This document shows, piece after piece, positions 11,761-24,407 of a DNA stretch of 27,230 nt (position 1 is its first letter; each line of letters opens with the position of its first letter). A model generated the notes under the pieces. It saw only the letters and a list, made by a program, of their open reading frames with translations. It ran no database searches and was not told the DNA's origin. Origin of the DNA: a virus. The stretch spans positions 1-27,230 of the IMG/VR virus record IMGVR_UViG_3300025395_000030; one strand, written 5' to 3'. Position numbers and translations under genes: made by a program.

Positions 11761-13217
11761 TAGCCAATTCCTTTCTGATACGGTTTCAGTAGTAGCTTGA
11801 TTTGTTCAGGATCTACATTCGGAAATGCAATTTGCACGATTTGGGCAGCCGAATCAGGTTTGATCTGATTAGCCGAAACCGCCTGAATGATCTGCATTAA
11901 GCTATCAATCTGCCCACCGTCCAAGGCTGTCTCCTGAATGACTCGCGGATCAGTGCTGGCAAGCTGCCCATTGTCGTCGACGGCTGGAACGCTGTGCGGA
12001 CCAAAAACAGACATATTCTCAGGCATTAATCGGACATCACCTTCCGGCCCGTCAATAGGTTTCATGCGTTCGCGCCGAAGAATATCGTTCAAGGTAAAGA
12101 TGCCAGAATAGCGGCCCGTCTGGTACATCTGGAATCGGGTGGCCCCGTCAGTCTGAAGCAGTTCATGCGTGTTGTGCGACACCGAAAACGCCATTCGCTC
12201 GGCAGGCCGAAACAATTTCCGGTTAATTTCCTGACACCATTTGATCAGCCAGGGGCGGAGGGTATAGGTAAGGAAATCGATGCCCTGGTGTTCGATGTTG
12301 GCGAAAGATGCGTTCGACAAATCACGCAACATATGGGGCGGGATATTAAACCAGCGGGCAATCTCGATCACTTGGAATTGTCGGGTCTGAAGGAATTGAC
12401 TGTCTTCCGGCGACAAACCAACCGTCTTGTAAGATGCGCCCTCTTCGAGGATTGCGATTCTGTTCGATTGGTCAACTCCCCTGTGAACCTGCTCCCAAGA
12501 CTCCCTTAAATTCTTGATTCCCTGTTCGCCTAATTCCGTAGGGTGTTCGATGATACCGCCTGGCACCGATCCATTGCCGAAGAACCTCCCGCCATGTTCT
12601 TCGCACGCCAAGCCCAAGCCCACACTATCCCGGGCGAGTTCAATCACGCCATAGCCCCGGATTCCATCGAAGCCAAGCCCAGGCACGTGAAGCAGGTCTT
12701 CGGGAAAAATGGTTTCATCCTGTTCACCCTCATAATGGGCATGAAACTCATAGCATAGTTTGCCGTCGTCGGTGCGGTTCGGCTCAATCTGGTTGGGCAT
12801 CACCGGCCAAAGATTGACGATATTCCCATCGGTGTCACGCTCGATCTTGGCATAGCAATTGCCATAGGTCAGCATATGGGCTTGAAGAGTCTCGAAAAAA
12901 ATAAACGGCGTCATCTCGACGTTGGGGGCCAGTTGCAACAGCCTGGCAATCGGGTGGTTCAAGACTTCTTCGAAGCCCTTGCCACTACGTTTATAGACGT
13001 TGATCGGCAATGATGCCACGGTGCCGGAAATCAAATTGACGGCACACCAAACAGCCGAGAAATTCAGGGCCTTGGCTTCGTCGACGTCGATCCCCGATGA
13101 TGCAGGCGTCCGGCCGAGCATGGCCACCAAAGCCGGATCACGAAGGGGGATGCCCGCAAACTTGGCGGCACGCTTCGCGATGCCTCCGGCTACTCGCTGT
13201 AAAAAAGATTTTTTCAT
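11760..13217 (-). CDS. Portal protein, HK97/SPP1-like superfamily
   Basis: This 485-aa portal forms the dodecameric DNA gate of the head. Characteristic text includes LNFSAVWCAVNLISGTVASLP, NVYKRSGKGFEEVLNHPIARLLQLAPN, LTYGNCYAKIERD, and the C-terminal wing and crown with FSVSHNTHELLQTDGATRFQMYQTG. The SNIEHQ-type segment is present as SFANIEHQGIDFLTYTLRPWL. The length is in the usual 400-500 range. Its ATG overlaps the terminase stop (ATGA), so it is coupled. The C-terminal tail (about 440-485) is variable. All domains look intact. Confidence 0.93.
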   Translation of the reverse strand: MKKSFLQRVAGGIAKRAAKFAGIPLRDPALVAMLGRTPASSGIDVDEAKALNFSAVWCAVNLISGTVASLPINVYKRSGKGFEEVLNHPIARLLQLAPNVEMTPFIFFETLQAHMLTYGNCYAKIERDTDGNIVNLWPVMPNQIEPNRTDDGKLCYEFHAHYEGEQDETIFPEDLLHVPGLGFDGIRGYGVIELARDSVGLGLACEEHGGRFFGNGSVPGGIIEHPTELGEQGIKNLRESWEQVHRGVDQSNRIAILEEGASYKTVGLSPEDSQFLQTRQFQVIEIARWFNIPPHMLRDLSNASFANIEHQGIDFLTYTLRPWLIKWCQEINRKLFRPAERMAFSVSHNTHELLQTDGATRFQMYQTGRYSGIFTLNDILRRERMKPIDGPEGDVRLMPENMSVFGPHSVPAVDDNGQLASTDPRVIQETALDGGQIDSLMQIIQAVSANQIKPDSAAQIVQIAFPNVDPEQIKLLLKPYQKGIG

Positions 13218-14905
13218 ATCGATTGGACTCCAGTGGTTTGATATTTACTTGGCTTCTTTTCTCCGGTTTTGATAATTCCAGCCAGGGCAAGGATGGAGGC
13301 AAAAACGCCGTCAATTTTTTCCGCTGAATTCTTTTTCGTCGGCTTGATATTCCCGGCCGCGTCCGATTCAACCGCCACGTTTGCCACGTTCCATTGCATC
13401 ACCGGGTTGCCGTCGTGCCGAATATTTCCTTCCAGCACCAGTTTTTCAAACTCTTTTGTGGCTCCAGCAACACCGTAAAAAGTAGGTCGAACGAAAACTA
13501 CATTATGCCGATCCGACTGCAATTGCGTTGCCAGCTGGGTGGCGTTCCATGGGTCAATCAATATCTGATCGATTTTGTATTGTTTGCCAAAATCGTTGAT
13601 GTCTTTCCTGATTACGTCGTAATCGATTACGTCGCCCTTGGTTAATTTGATCCAGCCTTGCCTCACCCAGTTGTCCAGCCTGGTGCGGTTTGATCTCTCG
13701 CGGGTCTTCAGCGCTGATTCAGGAAGCCAAAATCGGGTCATGATTCGATAAGGCGATGATTTTGGGAATATCGCGGTCATGGCCGTCAAGTCGGTTGTTG
13801 TGGATAAATCGAGGCCCACAAAGCATTTGCTTTTTGCTTCGATTGGCGTGTGGTCTTCGAGTTCCCGCCATCGGTCCACCGATAACCATCGAGTCACTTG
13901 CCCGCACCATTGATTGAGCCGATAACGTCGGAAATTATTTTCGTTGGCCGGACTGCTGATTGCTTCTTCACATGCCTCTTTCATTGATCGAGTTGAAATC
14001 GTGATTCCATAAGACGGATTGGCTTTTTTCCACGTCTCTTCTGATTTCCAATCGTCATTATCGCCGGCAGCATAAACCACGCCGAGCAAGCTGATGTCTT
14101 CCGATCGGTTCTCCTGCACGGCTAATGCCTGCTCCCATTGCTCCCAACACAGAGACTCTTTATCGATGCCGGCCGTCGTAATCCAAAAGATAAGGGGCTG
14201 CCGCCTGGCTGCGCCCCCGTATCGAAGCGTGTTCCACAAATCGCGGGTCTGCTGTGTGTGCAATTCGTCAAACAAAAGCCCCGAAATATTGAAGCCGTCT
14301 TTCGTCGGTACGTCAGCCGAAAGAGCTTCAAAAATCGAATTGGTTTCAGGGTATCGGATCGTTTTACTGGCCCGCCTGACCTTCAACCGGCTGGATAGTG
14401 CCGAAGACGCTTCGACCATCGTGGCCGCTTCATTGTAAATGATCGACGCCTGTTTCCGGTCTGCTGCAGCCGTATAAACCTCCGCGCCACGTTCGCCATC
14501 GGCTACCAATAGATAAAGGGCCACGCCCGCGCAAAGCGTAGACTTGCCATTCTTTTTCGGAATTGCCACGCCCGCGCGGTTAAAACGCCTGGTTCCATCA
14601 GGCATTTTCCAACCAAATAACGGAGCAATCACCCGATCCCACTGCCAATCGAGCAATTCAAACGGCCGGCCCGCGTCCGCGCCTTTCGAGTGGCGTAAGA
14701 ATTTTTCAAAAAAGGTCCGAACCCGTTCGGCTGCACGCGAGTCGAAATAACATCCCTGACTCGCGGCAACCTCATCGGCTCGGGTTCTGATCCAGTTTTT
14801 TGTTTCTGCCGTCAATCTTGTTCCCTTTGCAACAACTGAGGCAGTATCTGCACCCTGGGCATTTGCACCCGGCTGTGCATCGGTGACGCTTTCCGCACGA
14901 ATCAC
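13214..14905 (-). CDS. terL: Terminase large subunit
   Basis: This 563-aa ATP-driven DNA packaging motor and nuclease starts with GTG on the small-subunit stop (GTGA). The ATPase has Walker A at 115-122 (IPKKNGKS) and Walker B GLLFDELH with Asp213-Glu214. The RNase H-like nuclease has Asp366 (VGLDLSTTTD), Asp451 (ILIDPWNA) and Asp532 (AEKIDGVFA). All catalytic positions are present. The order TerS, TerL, portal, protease is standard. The text resembles HK97-like TerL (phage terminase-like family), which implies cos or pac cutting; which one cannot be told. The Ala/Gly-rich first 30 residues are poorly conserved-looking, and the true start could be later. Confidence 0.95.
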   Translation of the reverse strand: MIRAESVTDAQPGANAQGADTASVVAKGTRLTAETKNWIRTRADEVAASQGCYFDSRAAERVRTFFEKFLRHSKGADAGRPFELLDWQWDRVIAPLFGWKMPDGTRRFNRAGVAIPKKNGKSTLCAGVALYLLVADGERGAEVYTAAADRKQASIIYNEAATMVEASSALSSRLKVRRASKTIRYPETNSIFEALSADVPTKDGFNISGLLFDELHTQQTRDLWNTLRYGGAARRQPLIFWITTAGIDKESLCWEQWEQALAVQENRSEDISLLGVVYAAGDNDDWKSEETWKKANPSYGITISTRSMKEACEEAISSPANENNFRRYRLNQWCGQVTRWLSVDRWRELEDHTPIEAKSKCFVGLDLSTTTDLTAMTAIFPKSSPYRIMTRFWLPESALKTRERSNRTRLDNWVRQGWIKLTKGDVIDYDVIRKDINDFGKQYKIDQILIDPWNATQLATQLQSDRHNVVFVRPTFYGVAGATKEFEKLVLEGNIRHDGNPVMQWNVANVAVESDAAGNIKPTKKNSAEKIDGVFASILALAGIIKTGEKKPSKYQTTGVQSI

Positions 14906-15381
14906 ACTGGTGAGAGATTATTCGCGAAGACATCGAATTCATCCATCTCCTGGGTTTTTGGTGGTTCAATCGCAATCTTGGTACGCGCTGCAGGGCTAAA
15001 TCCGAATTCATTGGCCATGCGTCGCAATTCGGCCAAGAGAACATTTGCCTGCCGCACAGCGGGGTGCAATTTCGGCTCGCCGTTGGCCCCTTTGATAATT
15101 CGGCCTTCGGCCAGCACAATCGCCAGGTAGGCCCGGTATTCGGCGAATGCGTGGCAATAGCCGGACAAAATAACCGTGTCGATGGCTACCAGCAAATGAC
15201 GTTCAGCGAGGTCCGGAACCACACGCCGCCACTCGGCCAGCGCTTCGCCCGTCAGCCAGGCGGGAGGATCTAATGGCAATGGAGGCCCGGCCGGGGTTTC
15301 TTGGACGATCGGGAGGTCTGCAGCCTTTACTTTGCCCGCCGGGGCTCGGCGTCGTCGTCGTGATTTTGATTTTCTGCCCAT
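14902..15381 (-). CDS. terS: Terminase small subunit, P27-like
   Basis: This 159-aa protein has SD GGGG 6-7 bases upstream of the ATG. The N-terminus is strongly basic (RKSKSRRRRRAP), followed by PPAWLTGEALAEWRRVVPDL, ERHLLVAIDTVILSGYCHAFAEYR and LHPAVRQANVLLAELRRMANEFGFSPAARTKI. That order, a WL…A..EW…L…D…L..YC…HP…GL.P..R pattern, is the P27 family. It recognises phage DNA and loads the large subunit. Its start overlaps the previous sigma-like gene by 55 bp. Confidence 0.9.
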   Translation of the reverse strand: MGRKSKSRRRRRAPAGKVKAADLPIVQETPAGPPLPLDPPAWLTGEALAEWRRVVPDLAERHLLVAIDTVILSGYCHAFAEYRAYLAIVLAEGRIIKGANGEPKLHPAVRQANVLLAELRRMANEFGFSPAARTKIAIEPPKTQEMDEFDVFANNLSPV

Positions 15382-15964: not shown

Positions 15965-16192
15965 CTAGTACAGCCCCACCAGGTTGGTGGCGGTCGTGCC
16001 GGTCGCCTTCACGGCCTGGAAAAAAAATTCCAGCCGTGTGCCCGTCGGCACTGCCTTAAACGTCACGGCTTGGCCCCCGTTCATTACGGCTGCAATGTCG
16101 CCAGTGCCACCGCAATAGATCGATCGCAAGGGCGGGTTGAATGTGGTCGTGTCTGATGGCGTGATACTGACGCCGTTGTTCTCTCCACTCAT
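15965..16192 (-). CDS. Spike-base-like small protein (RCAP_Rcc01079-type), internal start
   Basis: ATG 16192 is preceded by AAAAGGAG with 9-base spacing, better than the HNH start. The 75-aa product carries ITPSDTTTFNPPLRSIYCGG, GDIAAVMNGGQAVTFKAVPTG and ATGTTATNLVGLY. I recognise this as the short protein family typified by the gene-transfer-agent spike base protein: ITPSDTT.L…R…VGGAGD…GG..VTF..VPAG…TGTTAT.IVALY. In such phages it is a complete protein of about 70-80 aa, which fits this start and supports independent translation. It probably binds tail spikes or the virion surface. Its position far from the tail genes is unusual. Confidence 0.72.
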   Translation of the reverse strand: MSGENNGVSITPSDTTTFNPPLRSIYCGGTGDIAAVMNGGQAVTFKAVPTGTRLEFFFQAVKATGTTATNLVGLY

Positions 16193-16486
16193 TTCATCAG
16201 TCTCCTTTTGTTCAGGATTTTTAATTCTACCAAAAGCTCCATCATGCTGATACGTTTTTCGGCTATGGCATCGATGGCACAGTGATTGATAATTATCTAA
16301 TGAGTTGTTTTCTCTGTTGCCGTCGAAGTGGTCCACTGCTGTTGCAGCTTGCCCGCACCTGGCACAGGCGGGATGATGTCGAAGGTACCATGCCCGCCTG
16401 TTCTGCCAGTATTTTGATCGGTAGAACCGATCAGCCTTTTTCACCTCATGCGGTGCATTCTTCAGGTATTGCGGTTTTTGTGGCAT
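15965..16486 (-). CDS. HNH endonuclease joined in frame to a spike-base-like domain
   Basis: This single 173-aa ORF has two parts. Residues 1-95 are an HNH nuclease: RSKYWQNRRAWYLRHHPACARCG, Cys41/Cys44, VDHFDGNRENNSLDNYQSLC with His53, then CHRCHSRKT. Such nucleases nick DNA and often sit near terminases and help packaging. Residues 99-173 are a different domain, described in the next entry, and have their own strong SD. There is no stop between the parts. The SD for the HNH start (GCGGAAAAAGA) is weak. It follows the clamp gene by 10 bp. A genuine fusion, or two genes that share a frame, are both possible. Confidence 0.8.
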   Translation of the reverse strand: MPQKPQYLKNAPHEVKKADRFYRSKYWQNRRAWYLRHHPACARCGQAATAVDHFDGNRENNSLDNYQSLCHRCHSRKTYQHDGAFGRIKNPEQKETDEMSGENNGVSITPSDTTTFNPPLRSIYCGGTGDIAAVMNGGQAVTFKAVPTGTRLEFFFQAVKATGTTATNLVGLY

Positions 16487-16496
16487 TCTTTTTCCG

Positions 16497-17642
16497 CTAC
16501 TTTTTTGGCTTTTCAGGCAACTCTATCGGCATCACGATATAAGTGTATCTATCATAATGACTCATTTTAATCGGTCTGGCCGATGTAGTCATCTCAAATG
16601 TGATTTCTTCATCGGGTAATATGTGTTTCAGATAATCCATCACCAGTTTTGGATTAAACCTGATTTTAAAATTCTTGACTTCGCCAAAGAAGTTTAAATT
16701 GACGAATGACTTGCGTGTTGGGCTCATGCTGCTGATTTTTAAAAGGTTAGAATGGAAATCCATTTCAACCCAGATTGATTCGTCGTCTGTGCCGTGTGCT
16801 GCTGCTTTTAATGCAATCAACAAATTTCCAGCAAACACTGTGAATTTCTTTTCAGCTTTGTCCGGCAGGATAAGGCGATAATTTGGAAATCGGCCTTCAA
16901 CCACGCCGGTGTAAATCGTGGCCGTGGATGTTTGAAACATGACGCCGTTTGTCAGAAAAAAGATTTTGATCTCTTCATTGTCCTGAATTGTTTTGGACAA
17001 CAATTGCAATGCTTTTACTGGAACAATGTGACTGGCATTTATTTTGAATTCGTCCATTATCGAGTAAAACGATAACCGATGGCCATCAGTGGAAACAAAA
17101 TTAATTGCCCCTTCGGTTGCATTAACCTCGATTAATACGCCTGAAATGGCGTGCTTGGCTGAACTGGATTCAGTAGTCGCAAATGCGGTCAAGGCAATTG
17201 CCTGTTTCAGCTTAATGCCTTCGATCGTCACTGGATTAGGATAATGATCAGGCACACCAAATACCGGCATTTCTTCTGGCAGCCCTGGCAAGGATAAATC
17301 AAATTTGCCATAGTCTCCAGAAATGGCAATTCTTTCCGATTCGCCTGCCTTGGTTAACTTGATAGTCACTTTCTCAACCGTTGGCAGATCCCGAATCATG
17401 GCAACGGTTTTGCTAGGCAATAGGATTTGCCCCGTTGAAAGTGATTTTTCATCGGTGTTGTCGCGCTCAAACAATAATTCAAAACTCATATCGCCATCGG
17501 TGCCGTAAATTTTCACGGTTTCATCGTTATAAGAAAGCATCAGGCAATCATAAATCGGGGAGGTTTTATCCCGGGTTGATACTGCTGCAACCGTGGACAT
17601 TGCTGTCAGTAATTGTTTACGATCGAATTGAGAACAAAACAT
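16497..17642 (-). CDS. dnaN: DNA polymerase III beta subunit (sliding clamp), phage-encoded
   Basis: This is a 381-aa clamp from ATG 17642, which has SD AGGGG at 7 bases. The TTG at 17660 only adds six residues across the SD. It shows TDGHRLS (185-191), EGRFPNY (249-255) and the C-terminal YIVMPI (368-373), the family hallmarks. The opening KQLLTAMSTVAAVSTRDKTSPIYDCLML fits domain 1. All three clamp domains are present (usual length 365-375). It tethers polymerase to DNA at the replication fork. Few phages encode their own bacterial-type clamp. It sits at the end of the replication block, which suggests phage control of fork processivity or of host clamp-binding proteins. Confidence 0.94.
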   Translation of the reverse strand: MFCSQFDRKQLLTAMSTVAAVSTRDKTSPIYDCLMLSYNDETVKIYGTDGDMSFELLFERDNTDEKSLSTGQILLPSKTVAMIRDLPTVEKVTIKLTKAGESERIAISGDYGKFDLSLPGLPEEMPVFGVPDHYPNPVTIEGIKLKQAIALTAFATTESSSAKHAISGVLIEVNATEGAINFVSTDGHRLSFYSIMDEFKINASHIVPVKALQLLSKTIQDNEEIKIFFLTNGVMFQTSTATIYTGVVEGRFPNYRLILPDKAEKKFTVFAGNLLIALKAAAHGTDDESIWVEMDFHSNLLKISSMSPTRKSFVNLNFFGEVKNFKIRFNPKLVMDYLKHILPDEEITFEMTTSARPIKMSHYDRYTYIVMPIELPEKPKK

Positions 17643-17662
17643 GATCAATCCCCTGATCAAAA

Positions 17663-18639: not shown

Positions 18640-18972
18640 TTAAATTCCCTTTCGGTTCCAATCACAAATTGCGTCCACGGTTGATTTGCTCAGGGCAATG
18701 GCCTGTCCGTCGTCCCAGGCGAGACGATAAACCTCCACCATATCGGTGCTGGCGGTAGTCTGTTCCCAATTGGGCCCAGCGCTGACGGGCTGCCGGTCCC
18801 ACAAATAATCCAAGATAATTTCTTTGTGTTCCTTAATCAGGTTTCGTAGCTCATCGGTCAACAAAGACTTGTTGCCCTGAAGGTTGAGGATCCATCCGGT
18901 GTCACTCTCATATTGGATGTCCAGCCTGAAGCCTAAGCGGCTAAGAGATCTAAGTAGCTGGTCTATCATCAT
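18640..18972 (-). CDS. TubC N-terminal docking-like protein
   Basis: This 110-aa protein starts at ATG 18972, with a second ATG next to it. It has LLRSLSRLGFRLDIQYESDTGWILNLQGNKSLLTDELRNLIKEHKEIILDYL. The L…L…G..L…L…LT.ELR..I..HK..IL pattern is the TubC docking domain, a dimeric protein-protein interaction module from NRPS/PKS enzymes that also appears in phage replication loci. Residues 65-110 end in WDDGQAIALSKSTVDAICDWN. It lies directly beside the iteron array and downstream of the primase-helicase, so it may be a replication partner (inference). Confidence 0.7.
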   Translation of the reverse strand: MMIDQLLRSLSRLGFRLDIQYESDTGWILNLQGNKSLLTDELRNLIKEHKEIILDYLWDRQPVSAGPNWEQTTASTDMVEVYRLAWDDGQAIALSKSTVDAICDWNRKGI

Positions 18973-19010: not shown

Positions 19011-19243
19011 GCGTTACACCGTTACACCGTTACAAGCGTTACACCGTTACAGTTTTTGTAACGCTGCATAGAGGGTTGTAACGGGGTTGTAACGCTAGCC
19101 CGTTACAAGGCTAAACTCTGATATTTAAAGGGTTTAGAGCAATCTGTAACGCTGTAACGGTAACACTAGAAAGATAGAGTAAATCCTGTTATTTCATTTT
19201 GCGTTACATGCGTTACACCGTTACAAGCGTTACACCGTTACAG
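19011..19243. repeat. Iteron array: 16 copies of CGTTACA in both orientations; candidate replication origin
   Basis: CGTTACA occurs on the plus strand at 19012, 19020, 19028, 19037, 19045, 19101, 19202, 19211, 19219, 19228 and 19236. The inverse TGTAACG lies at 19057, 19077, 19088, 19145 and 19153. Spacing within clusters is 8-9 bp, nearly one per helical turn. Two almost identical five-copy clusters (19011-19052 and 19201-19243) flank an AT-rich stretch (TCTGATATTTAAAGGG and AGTAAATCCTGTTATTTCATTTT). The array fills the whole gap between the primase-helicase and TubC-like genes. It fits an iteron origin; an operator is the alternative. Confidence 0.85.
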
Positions 19244-19250
19244 AGTTTGG

Positions 19251-21335
19251 CTAAAAGCTTTCAGTGTCGTTTGTTCCGTGAACCAGAAATCCGAATTTTG
19301 TTCCTGACTTTCGAATAAGTCCGGCTTTGTGCATCTTGTAAAGGGTCACGCGAGTATTTTCACGGTTATGCTCAATGCAGTCGGCAATCTCTGCACTGGT
19401 AAAAAACGTCAAAGGGTTGCCTTGGAGAAATTGGTAAATCTTGGATTGAAGCTCGCCTTCAACTACCGTTTTACTGTCTCCCAAGTTAGTCCAGGTGAAT
19501 TTGACTGGATCGAATTTGCAAACAATTTCTTTCTCTTCGATGTCTCTTCCGGTGAGAAATAACTTGGCTTCATTCTCACCCCGGTGTCGGGACATGATGA
19601 CCATGCCGTCAGCACAGCCAGCAAGCCCATGCGTTCCGGATATTTCATCTACCACGTCTTCGGCCACTGCCTTTTTGCAGTGATGCAAAGCAAGGATGGA
19701 AATGCCGGTAGAATCGCCCAAAGCCTTCAGGGCTCCGGCGTATTCGTAATCCTGTTCGTACTGGTTGCCGTTGGCCTTAGTCGGAGGCTTAAATTTTGCC
19801 CACACGTCAAGCACGATCAGCCGGGGCCTCGATCTGGAATCGATCCATTTTTTGATCTCATCAAGGCCGCCCTGGTGCATGCGAGGAAATTCGCACGACC
19901 AAACAAGCCGGTTTGTGGCTTCCAGATTAAGCCCTGCCCTCACCTTTCTGGATCGGTCCTGAATACGCCTAAGCCGGTCTTCGAGAGCCAAGTAAAGGAC
20001 GTCGCCCGGCTCCGTTTGGGCATCGCCCAGGGCCTTCGCCCCGTTGGCTATCGTCAAAGCCAAATTCAGGGCCAACCAGCTTTTGCCCAGCTTGGGCTTG
20101 CCGGCAAGGATCGACAAACCTTCCGATAGTAGCCCAGGCACAGCCCACCGCGCTGGCGGGATGTCCAGCCGGTCAAGGGTGTCGTCTTCGTAAAATGTCA
20201 CGGTTGGCTTTTCTGATGTCGGCCCTACAGGCAATCCCGCCGTTATCGGTGATGCCGTCGGCTTCGCCTGCTCCGGTAGCACCCTGGGCGTCAGCAGGCC
20301 CTTATCAAGACCATCCCTGATCGTCCTGGCGTCTGCAGCCCGATCGCCCTTCCAGGTGTCCGCTGCATTGGTCAAATGGGCTTCGGCCATCTCCCGGGAA
20401 ATATAGCCACCGACGACCAGGTTGCCGAAATTGGCCGCCGCGCGGAACAGGGCTGCATGTCGTTCACCCTCCGGTGTCCGTAGTAGCTGGCCAAGCTCCC
20501 GATCCAATATTGCCTGCAGATAAGATTGGCCGGAGGTGTTGCTGGTGGCAGGCACGACTAGCGACGATTTTTGCCCTGGCTTAGCGCCTTCGGCTGACAG
20601 GGTGGCCGTCAATATCTGATCACGTGTGACCAGATTGGCATGGTAGTCGGCCACCGATGGCGCTGATAATACTTTGGCCATGCGGTGAGGCCGTTCATCG
20701 CTGGCAGGGCCTTTACAGGACATGGTCCCGGGCAATTTGCGGATCCTGCGAGCATCGTAGACGCTGGCATCGATCTTGATCGCCTGGTTGTCGAACCGCC
20801 GACCCAAGGCCCGTAGAAACAACTTCAGGGCCTGCTTGGTGTCGTCGTCGTTCGGGAGGTCAATTCGGAAATCGATATGCACGCCATTGCCGCTGTCAAT
20901 CACTACCGGCTCAGGCCATCGATATTGATCGACCAAAAGGGCAATGACCTGCTTGCTGATCGCAAAAATCTGATCCCGTTCGGCTTCACTGGCGTTGGTC
21001 CCGGTGCCTCCGGCTCGATCAATGTCGATTAGGAGGTGGTGCCTTGCACAAATATCGTCATTGCGTGCTGCGCTGACGGTCATCGTGGTTTCATCGATCG
21101 GATTCAGCGTGATGTAAACCCCGATCGGGTCATGTTGTTCGCACAGCCGTTGCACGGCTCGGATGACCTGGTCAGGGGCATTCCCGGCACAGTATTCAAA
21201 CTTGGCCGATGGCAATACTTGAACCATCACAAGATGTTCAGGCGAGGTGAGATAAGGCAAGCAGGCCCGAACCTGGTCGAGGTCCGGGGTCTGCTGCCGC
21301 CCGCCTGTCACCCTGATTTTAAAAATGGATGACAT
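19251..21335 (-). CDS. PrimPol-like primase fused to RepA/RecA-fold ATPase and a winged helix
   Basis: This 694-aa multidomain replication protein is intact. Residues 1-225 are AEP/RepB-like primase: LLIDIDRAG (Asp104, Asp106), DSGNGVH with His153, then IDASVYDARRIRKLPGTMSC. Residues 395-610 are an AAA_25/RepA-like ATPase: Walker A AGKPKLGKSW (411-420), Walker B LIVLD (506-510) and a LALHHCKK sensor segment (548-555). Residues 625-690 look like a winged helix (FLQGNPLTFFTSAEIADCIEHN). It would prime and unwind at the origin, and the iteron array begins 8 bp after its stop. SD AGGA lies 7 bases from the ATG. Confidence 0.9.
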   Translation of the reverse strand: MSSIFKIRVTGGRQQTPDLDQVRACLPYLTSPEHLVMVQVLPSAKFEYCAGNAPDQVIRAVQRLCEQHDPIGVYITLNPIDETTMTVSAARNDDICARHHLLIDIDRAGGTGTNASEAERDQIFAISKQVIALLVDQYRWPEPVVIDSGNGVHIDFRIDLPNDDDTKQALKLFLRALGRRFDNQAIKIDASVYDARRIRKLPGTMSCKGPASDERPHRMAKVLSAPSVADYHANLVTRDQILTATLSAEGAKPGQKSSLVVPATSNTSGQSYLQAILDRELGQLLRTPEGERHAALFRAAANFGNLVVGGYISREMAEAHLTNAADTWKGDRAADARTIRDGLDKGLLTPRVLPEQAKPTASPITAGLPVGPTSEKPTVTFYEDDTLDRLDIPPARWAVPGLLSEGLSILAGKPKLGKSWLALNLALTIANGAKALGDAQTEPGDVLYLALEDRLRRIQDRSRKVRAGLNLEATNRLVWSCEFPRMHQGGLDEIKKWIDSRSRPRLIVLDVWAKFKPPTKANGNQYEQDYEYAGALKALGDSTGISILALHHCKKAVAEDVVDEISGTHGLAGCADGMVIMSRHRGENEAKLFLTGRDIEEKEIVCKFDPVKFTWTNLGDSKTVVEGELQSKIYQFLQGNPLTFFTSAEIADCIEHNRENTRVTLYKMHKAGLIRKSGTKFGFLVHGTNDTESF

Positions 21336-21350
21336 TGGGATTCCTGATTA

Positions 21351-21977
21351 TTAAAAGGGGATGTTGTCGTCTTGGGAATTGTTGCTCACTGCTGCCGATG
21401 CGGTGCCTGCCATGGACTGCCTCATCGCCTTCCATGTCTCGCTTTTGCCGATATATTCGGCCAGCGTTTCTCCATAAATTTTGGGAAACCAGGTCGGGAC
21501 CTCAAGATCGCCCGATGGCTGACCGTTGGTGCCAAACTCCCAGGTGTAAGGCTGGTGCCTGCCCGTTGGCCTCTCCATGCCTTTGGGCAGTGGTGAACAC
21601 CCGGCAAGATTCACGTTGCCCTTCTCATTTTCGGTGAGATTGACAAGGCAAGGAATACCGAGCAATTTTGACACGTCAAGCTCTTCGGCATTGGTGTAAG
21701 GCTTGCCCCGTATGGATTCCATTAATTTTCTCAGACCTGATTTTTCATGGCCGGAAAGTGTAAAGTTTTTGACGATGACATGGTTGTATCCCCGCGTTCC
21801 AGACATCGCTTCATCGACAAGCTCGAAGCCGAGGGCAATCTTGCGAACCAGCTTTTCGGGCTGATCACCGTAAGATTCGAAGTGTTCGCCACAATCTACG
21901 ACAGCACAGCACACAGCGCGGTGCGTGCCTGCCGGTGGGCGTTCGTATTCAGACGATTTCGTTGATGTTTTCAGCAT
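21351..21977 (-). CDS. ssDNA-binding-like replication protein
   Basis: This 208-aa protein has SD AAGGAG 8 bases from the ATG. The N-terminal domain has GTHRAVCCAVVDCGEHFESYGDQPEKLVRKIALGFELVDE, then KNFTLSGHEKSGLRKLMESI and DVSKLLGIPCLVNL, the layout I recall for phage ssDNA-binding/annealing-type proteins next to primase-helicases. The C-terminus ends in acidic DDNIPF, like the partner-binding tip of bacterial SSB (DDDIPF). It would coat single strands at the fork and could recruit the primase-helicase encoded 15 bp downstream. The exact fold (OB) is not proven by eye. Confidence 0.72.
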   Translation of the reverse strand: MLKTSTKSSEYERPPAGTHRAVCCAVVDCGEHFESYGDQPEKLVRKIALGFELVDEAMSGTRGYNHVIVKNFTLSGHEKSGLRKLMESIRGKPYTNAEELDVSKLLGIPCLVNLTENEKGNVNLAGCSPLPKGMERPTGRHQPYTWEFGTNGQPSGDLEVPTWFPKIYGETLAEYIGKSETWKAMRQSMAGTASAAVSNNSQDDNIPF

Positions 21978-24221: not shown

Positions 24222-24407
24222 ATGGTCAAAAAAAAGTCTGACAAACCAGTTGAGAAAAAGAAAAAAAGTCGCGGAATGATTAGAGTCGACGACGATCTTC
24301 ACGATATTTTGCTTCAAGAAGCATTAAAAGAAAACAGAGATAAAACAGGCCAATTGAATTATCTTTTAAGAAAGCTGTTTAAAGAGCAAGGATTAATCCC
24401 TAGCTAA
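24222..24407 (+). CDS. Ribbon-helix-helix-like small DNA-binding protein
   Basis: This 61-aa Lys-rich protein is the only plus-strand gene near the integrase. After a basic N-terminus (KKKSDKPVEKKKKS) it has MIRVDDDLHDILLQEALKENRD, a beta strand plus helix, then QLNYLLRKLFKEQGLI as second helix. This is the Arc/CopG ribbon-helix-helix layout. It may repress the divergent early operon or the integrase, and its promoter lies in the gap with palindromes. Its last 8 bases overlap the converging excisionase candidate. Confidence 0.75.
   Translation: MVKKKSDKPVEKKKKSRGMIRVDDDLHDILLQEALKENRDKTGQLNYLLRKLFKEQGLIPS

Follow-up and report, generated by a model that had tools for sequence, protein, structure and literature searches.

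An iteron array immediately 3′ of a RepA-type primase-helicase gene as a probable phage replication origin

A dense array of short repeats lies directly past the end of a primase-helicase gene in the viral record IMGVR_UViG_3300025395_000030, of which the whole 27,230-bp stretch analysed is referred to here as the window. The locus raises the question of whether such an array is an origin of replication, as a preliminary description made from the letters of the DNA had proposed, and, if so, which protein reads it.

The array itself is confirmed. The heptamer CGTTACA, counted together with its complement TGTAACG, occurs as 16 exact copies in the window, all of them within 19012–19242, matching the number first reported, with zero copies in the remainder of the 27,230 bp, although 1.74 copies would be expected in the whole window. 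It forms the densest 7-mer cluster of the record (16 copies per 260 bp, the runner-up reaching 6), and in 100 first-order Markov shuffles no 7-mer exceeded 6 copies per 260 bp. Because C or G precedes the word in 16 of 16 cases, the iteron unit can be written as SCGTTACA. The parts of the array, placed by word positions except where stated, are as follows.

19012–19242, both strands (11 copies on +, 5 on −): array of 16 SCGTTACA iterons, proposed replication origin (word count and shuffles)
19012–19051, + strand: left cluster of five iterons, spaced 8, 8, 9, 8
19057–19107, both strands: inverse copies at 19057, 19077 and 19088 and a forward copy at 19101
19108–19201: AT-rich stretch between iteron sets, candidate melting site, holding inverse copies at 19145 and 19153
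19202–19242, + strand: right cluster of five iterons, spaced 9, 8, 9, 8, oriented like the left cluster

Each five-copy cluster spans 40–41 bp at a spacing of 8 or 9, and both belong to a 63-nt direct repeat of 75% identity, 199 bp apart. The clusters had been called mirrored, which is wrong because they point the same way as direct repeats, with the inverse copies between them. That they flank inverse copies and AT-rich DNA is borne out in part: five inverse copies do lie inside, and the 94 bp from the last inner forward copy to the right cluster are 66% AT compared with 49% for the record, but 19108–19201 ranks outside the record's 12 least stable places. No DnaA boxes or IHF-type sites were found within the array, and Rfam and tRNA searches gave no matches.

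As first described, the array fills the gap beside the primase-helicase gene: it begins 9 bp beyond the stop codon (19251) and occupies the space towards the start of a leftward 110-aa open reading frame (ORF) at 18972. The genes and domains that bear on its function are listed below.

19251–21335, − strand: primase-helicase, 694 aa, proposed initiator, with its 3′ end 9 bp from the array (domain and profile matches)
19266–19478, − strand: C-terminal region, about residues 620–690, proposed iteron reader (predicted H-H-H-E-E winged-helix topology, low confidence)
19668–20177, − strand: RecA-fold hexameric helicase domain, residues 387–556 (AAA_25, E = 3e-27; RSF1010 RepA, E = 1e-9)
20706–21146, − strand: N-terminal primase-like region, residues 64–210 (weak match to phage DNA polymerase/primase phrog_2478, E = 2e-4)
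21351–21977, − strand: gene directly upstream of the helicase, a replication-module neighbour (NCBIfam 'phage replication initiation protein, NGO0469 family', E = 1e-36)
16497–17660, − strand: phage-encoded DNA polymerase III beta clamp, a replication-module neighbour

The sole solved-structure match of the window helicase ATPase is RSF1010 RepA (1g8y, E = 1.3e-9). Its C-terminus is modelled (pLDDT below 60) with helices at residues 626–639, 647–656 and 658–670 and strands at 674–677 and 680–683, and gives sub-threshold HMM matches to HTH_Crp_2 and MarR_2; the AlphaFold model of the entire protein is poor (pLDDT 46). These predictions hint, weakly, at a winged helix in the window protein itself. 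Exact-peptide scans of viral contigs found no homologue of the window helicase, and the helicase of contig L104 recovered itself only. The window also encodes a large terminase, a P27-type small terminase and an integrase, and further ORFs, judged from the ORF list, resemble phage structural genes. A small ribbon-helix-helix (RHH) protein with a weak Omega_Repress match is encoded close to the integrase, at 24222–24407 on the + strand. The ORF at 15965–16486 appears to be an odd fusion, with an HNH-like N-terminal half and a C-terminal half matching the RCAP_Rcc01079 spike base family (E = 3e-20), and groups by BLAST with ORFs of contigs L103, L104 and L125.

Is the position of the array peculiar to this window? 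Named phages were picked by helicase similarity alone, and ten genomes (one of them over 50 of its 60 kb) were searched for the strongest array of short repeats that occur on both strands. In 7 of the ten phages this top array fell no more than about 100 bp from the 3′ end of the helicase gene:

CRP-831 (Roseobacter phage): GTATAAA, 10 copies, at the helicase 3′ end
Rhizobium phage 16-3: CGTGACA, 11 copies, at the helicase 3′ end
XX1924: GGTTCA, 12 copies, at the helicase 3′ end
CGphi29: GGGACA, 6 copies, barely above shuffles, at the helicase 3′ end
1N2-2: GGTACA, 11 copies, at the helicase 3′ end
CRP-406: GCTGGA, 8 copies, at the helicase 3′ end
MW202867: TGGGACA, 8 copies, at the helicase 3′ end

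The iteron words of the named phages are mostly CGnnACA-like, yet there is one per phage. In MW202711 the top array lies 1.5 kb from the helicase, and Vibrio 1.210.O and Pherbot carry the helicase with no such array in the scan. The same position recurs in a larger set of 68 non-redundant loci, assembled from GTDB, from Rhodobacterales/Alphaproteobacteria genome scans and from the phages, together with the window, L103 and L104; 65 of the 68 were chosen by helicase homology only, these last three not. In 50 of the 68 loci the strongest array of short repeats in mixed orientation is found at the helicase 3′ end; chance would give 5.4 such loci, and the highest count among 100,000 draws of the null was 16. 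Among arrays of at least 8 copies the fraction is 28 of 32, against 2.1 expected. In the relatives the array follows the helicase regardless of the next gene. Such arrays had been thought rare in phages of this type; downstream of RepA-type helicases they are in fact common.

Which protein reads the iterons is best addressed in the Rhodobacterales, where helicases that are 69–90% identical have the array in the same position with wholly different words (CGTCACA, CGTAACA, CGTTACA, CGGGACA and CGGACA), the switch running through the entire array. The last 90 residues of these helicases are predicted to form a winged helix, with pLDDT mostly 73–90 and elements in the order helix 271–286, strand 300–303, helices 304–313 and 322–338, and strands 342–345 and 348–351. 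The domain ahead of it has RSF1010 RepA as its best structural match (VIA-align Z 15, rmsd 2.6, 180 aligned; relative L183, residues 15–261). In a ranking that covers helicase columns alone, column 334, which is residue 327 of the L183 model and lies in helix 3 of the predicted winged helix, comes top, more strongly associated with the iteron word than any other of the 319 variable columns, and it leads again among 254 columns within a close clade. Second, fourth and sixth place go to columns 330, 328 and 337, which lie within helix 3 or where it begins. Column 334 is T with CGTCACA (6/6), M with CGTAACA (2/2), K with CGTTACC (6/6) and K or R with CGG-type words (13/14).

The word classes share ancestry, and pairs were therefore matched by ATPase-core identity (0.85 for pairs with the same word and 0.84 for pairs with different words). 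Column 334 differs in 97% of the different-word pairs and in 0% of the same-word pairs and again ranks first; the mean contrast in matched pairs is 0.30 for the helix compared with 0.05 for the ATPase core. The comparison strongly favours a helicase that itself reads its iterons in the Rhodobacterales, and the relatives suggest that it would do so with its tail end, one word per lineage. Identity between the window helicase and the Rhodobacterales family is low, at about 20%, and the C-terminal domain of the window protein gives no match to the Rhodobacterales profile (hhalign probability 0.2); position and layout carry over to the window directly, and the reading mechanism by inference.

The proposal that the array is a likely origin is thus well supported by comparison, because it lies 3′ of a primase-helicase gene, recurs in unrelated phages and has a word that covaries with the C-terminal helix of the helicase in relatives. 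We consider it highly probable that the array is the replication origin of this phage, whichever protein binds it, and probable that the primase-helicase is its iteron-binding, self-loading initiator. The primase-helicase would bind the SCGTTACA iterons through a C-terminal winged helix, form a RecA-fold hexamer at the pair of direct clusters and help to open the AT-rich DNA between them; it would then load itself and start replication, perhaps also priming it. From the array, its position, its recurrence and the covariation of iteron and recognition helix in relatives, all of which are documented at the level of sequence, we infer that in this phage the iterons are bound, the DNA melted, the helicase loaded and replication initiated.

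The origin might instead be bound by a separate protein, such as the NGO0469-family product of 21351–21977 or a small helix-turn-helix (HTH) protein, with the helicase merely recruited. There is precedent in RSF1010, whose RepA partners a separate iteron binder, RepC (PMC4234260), and in the window the helicase's upstream neighbour is itself named a replication initiation protein; small HTH genes also precede the helicase in 1N2-2, XX1924 and MW202867. We regard this arrangement as unlikely, since the Rhodobacterales word tracks the recognition helix of the helicase better than it tracks any other helicase column.

A different role for the array, as an operator at which a repressor or activator controls the operon starting at 18972, was raised in the preliminary description as a repressor site and now appears quite improbable. 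The array is indeed 5′ of the leftward ORF, repressors too use arrays of short sites, and the RHH gene at 24222–24407 offers a candidate through its weak Omega_Repress match. However, scoring of sigma-70-type sites gave nothing promoter-like beyond chance level in the region, no copy of CGTTACA occurs at the RHH gene or any other gene, and in relatives the arrays track the helicase whatever gene follows, with a word that covaries with the helicase. The resemblance to the ParB-like Omega repressor lies in 7-bp sites arrayed in both orientations and in the presence of the Omega_Repress-like gene. The Omega site is WATCACW, and such heptads stand at the promoter of the Omega regulator itself as well; the window word is CGTTACA and has no copies near that gene. 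No ParA was noticed in the window, in an inspection that was not systematic.

Further CGTTACA arrays were collected from other viral contigs by word and serve as background only. A scan for three close copies returned at least 119 stretches, and a complete scan with the reversed word as control returned 27; CGTTACA is thus enriched over the reversed word, 119 being a lower bound. Among the matches listed, the array lies directly 3′ of a RepA/AAA_25-type primase-helicase in L008, L103, L104 and L125, of a VapE-like or related helicase in L024, L030, L037, L039, L095 and L127, and of a Prim-Pol in L031, so that the primase-helicases preceding it come from unrelated superfamilies. Other arrays among these matches are found at small terminases, inside tail-fibre repeats or in other ORFs. 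CGTTACA as a universal origin word was rejected on the grounds of these other locations and of the differing words of relatives; because some CGTTACA arrays adjoin terminase genes in other phages, the word by itself is not enough to indicate an origin. A pac or cos-proximal packaging site bound by the small terminase can very nearly be dismissed for the window array, for although CGTTACA arrays adjoin small-terminase genes in the L102 and L047 group of contigs and lie between helicase and large terminase in L103, L104 and L125, the window terminase genes (13214–15381) are 3.6 kb from the array, the covariation maps to the helicase C-terminus, and the arrays of CRP-831, 16-3 and XX1924 are at the helicase, not the terminase.

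Several of these word-selected loci are of interest in their own right. Mixed-orientation CGTTACA arrays beside or over small-terminase genes (L102:3034–3436, L047:3045–3326, L026:2985–3386 and relatives) are possibly packaging sites. A recurrent 68-bp four-copy cluster lies within an ORF of 400–600 aa (L014:6738–6805, L018:1741–1808, L065:4653–4720 and relatives), and the L014 ORF that carries it has no Pfam or PHROG match. At L096:11267–11324 and L080:9215–9272 the repeats fall within ORFs whose products resemble phage replication initiation proteins, marginally so in L080; repeats inside the initiator ORF are the arrangement of lambda O-type origins. A short palindrome (e.g. CCCCATAGGGG) is framed by inverted iterons within the arrays of L103 (1850–1860), L104 (4265–4280) and L125 (4820–4830); similar palindromes occur in the arrays of Rhodobacterales relatives and are absent from the window array. 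The Gram-positive phage EFRM31 of Enterococcus (L156:2750–3040) has eight non-coding CGTTACA copies in both orientations, near genes that carry no replication annotation. In Thioclava dalianensis (L185:900–1420), the 3′ part of the helicase gene is frame-broken and partly duplicated beside an intact CGTTACA array, in a decaying prophage.

The reading of the window array as an origin places it close to known systems. Phage-inducible chromosomal islands (PICIs) have two iteron sets flanking AT-rich DNA, always immediately 3′ of rep, and in the E. coli PICI EcCICFT073 rep with its 3′ ori maintains a plasmid; the layout was said to occur in 'no other known bacterial replicon' (PMC6092414). SaPI Rep uses its C-terminal domain to recognise short iterons that directly follow rep, and SCCmec Cch2 likewise binds downstream repeats through its C-terminal domain (PMC7581432). 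The window array is similarly placed, 9 bp past the end of a putative initiator gene, with two direct five-copy sets flanking 66% AT DNA, although here with inverse copies inside; reading by the C-terminal domain, reported for SaPI Rep and Cch2, would extend to the window helicase. The systems differ in the helicase, which is of the DUF927 or Primase_Cterm/D5 type in PICI and SaPI Rep and a RecA-fold AAA_25 protein nearest RSF1010 RepA in the window, and in the element, PICIs being satellites that depend on helper virion genes whereas the window has its own terminase and ORFs resembling structural genes. The overall plan would thus be that of PICIs and SaPIs, with an iteron origin lying just past the 3′ end of the gene for a self-loading initiator helicase, but carried by a full tailed phage and using a helicase of the RSF1010-RepA type. 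The 'new class' of phage origin first suggested is therefore too strong a term (PMC6092414, PMC7581432), and on sequence grounds we class the putative window origin as a variant of the PICI/SaPI type.

Other replicons share parts of this plan. The RecA-fold helicase is related to RSF1010 RepA by sequence in the window (1g8y) and by fold in the L183 relative. In RSF1010 three proteins share the work (RepC binds iterons, RepA unwinds and RepB′ primes), whereas the window protein combines helicase, probable primase and probable iteron binder in one polypeptide with the array 3′ of its gene. P4 alpha and pRN1 ORF904 also unite primase, helicase and C-terminal DNA-binding domain in one polypeptide, and pRN1 has its origin 3′ of the primase-helicase gene and a C-terminal winged helix in the protein; unlike the window, pRN1 has a 100-nt stem-loop origin instead of iterons and an SF3 helicase (PMC4234260), and P4 has a TOPRIM-type primase. 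In the open-access literature, to which the search was confined, there was no description of a 3′ iteron array for RepA-type phage helicases and no paper on the origin of 16-3 or similar phages, and a full-text search for CGTTACA returned unrelated primers and oligos only.

Beyond this phage, we lean somewhat towards a general reading, in which a single RecA-fold (RepA-type) primase-helicase would act in many tailed phages as a self-loading initiator on a 3′ array, with word and recognition helix switching together between lineages as a readable code that separates near-identical replicons. As part of that reading, and with the same reserve, the code would pair T with CGTCACA, M with CGTAACA, V or Q with CGTTACA, K with CGTTACC, and K or R with CGG(G)ACA. 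To our knowledge, the origin is not known for most phages found by sequencing; if the reading is correct, the origin of many phages with RepA-type primase-helicases could be found just past the helicase gene. Full phages with an unrelated helicase would then share an origin layout that has been described as exclusive to satellites of phages, and naturally matched variants of protein and iteron would make initiator specificity, and the incompatibility of coinfecting phages or prophages, open to experiment.
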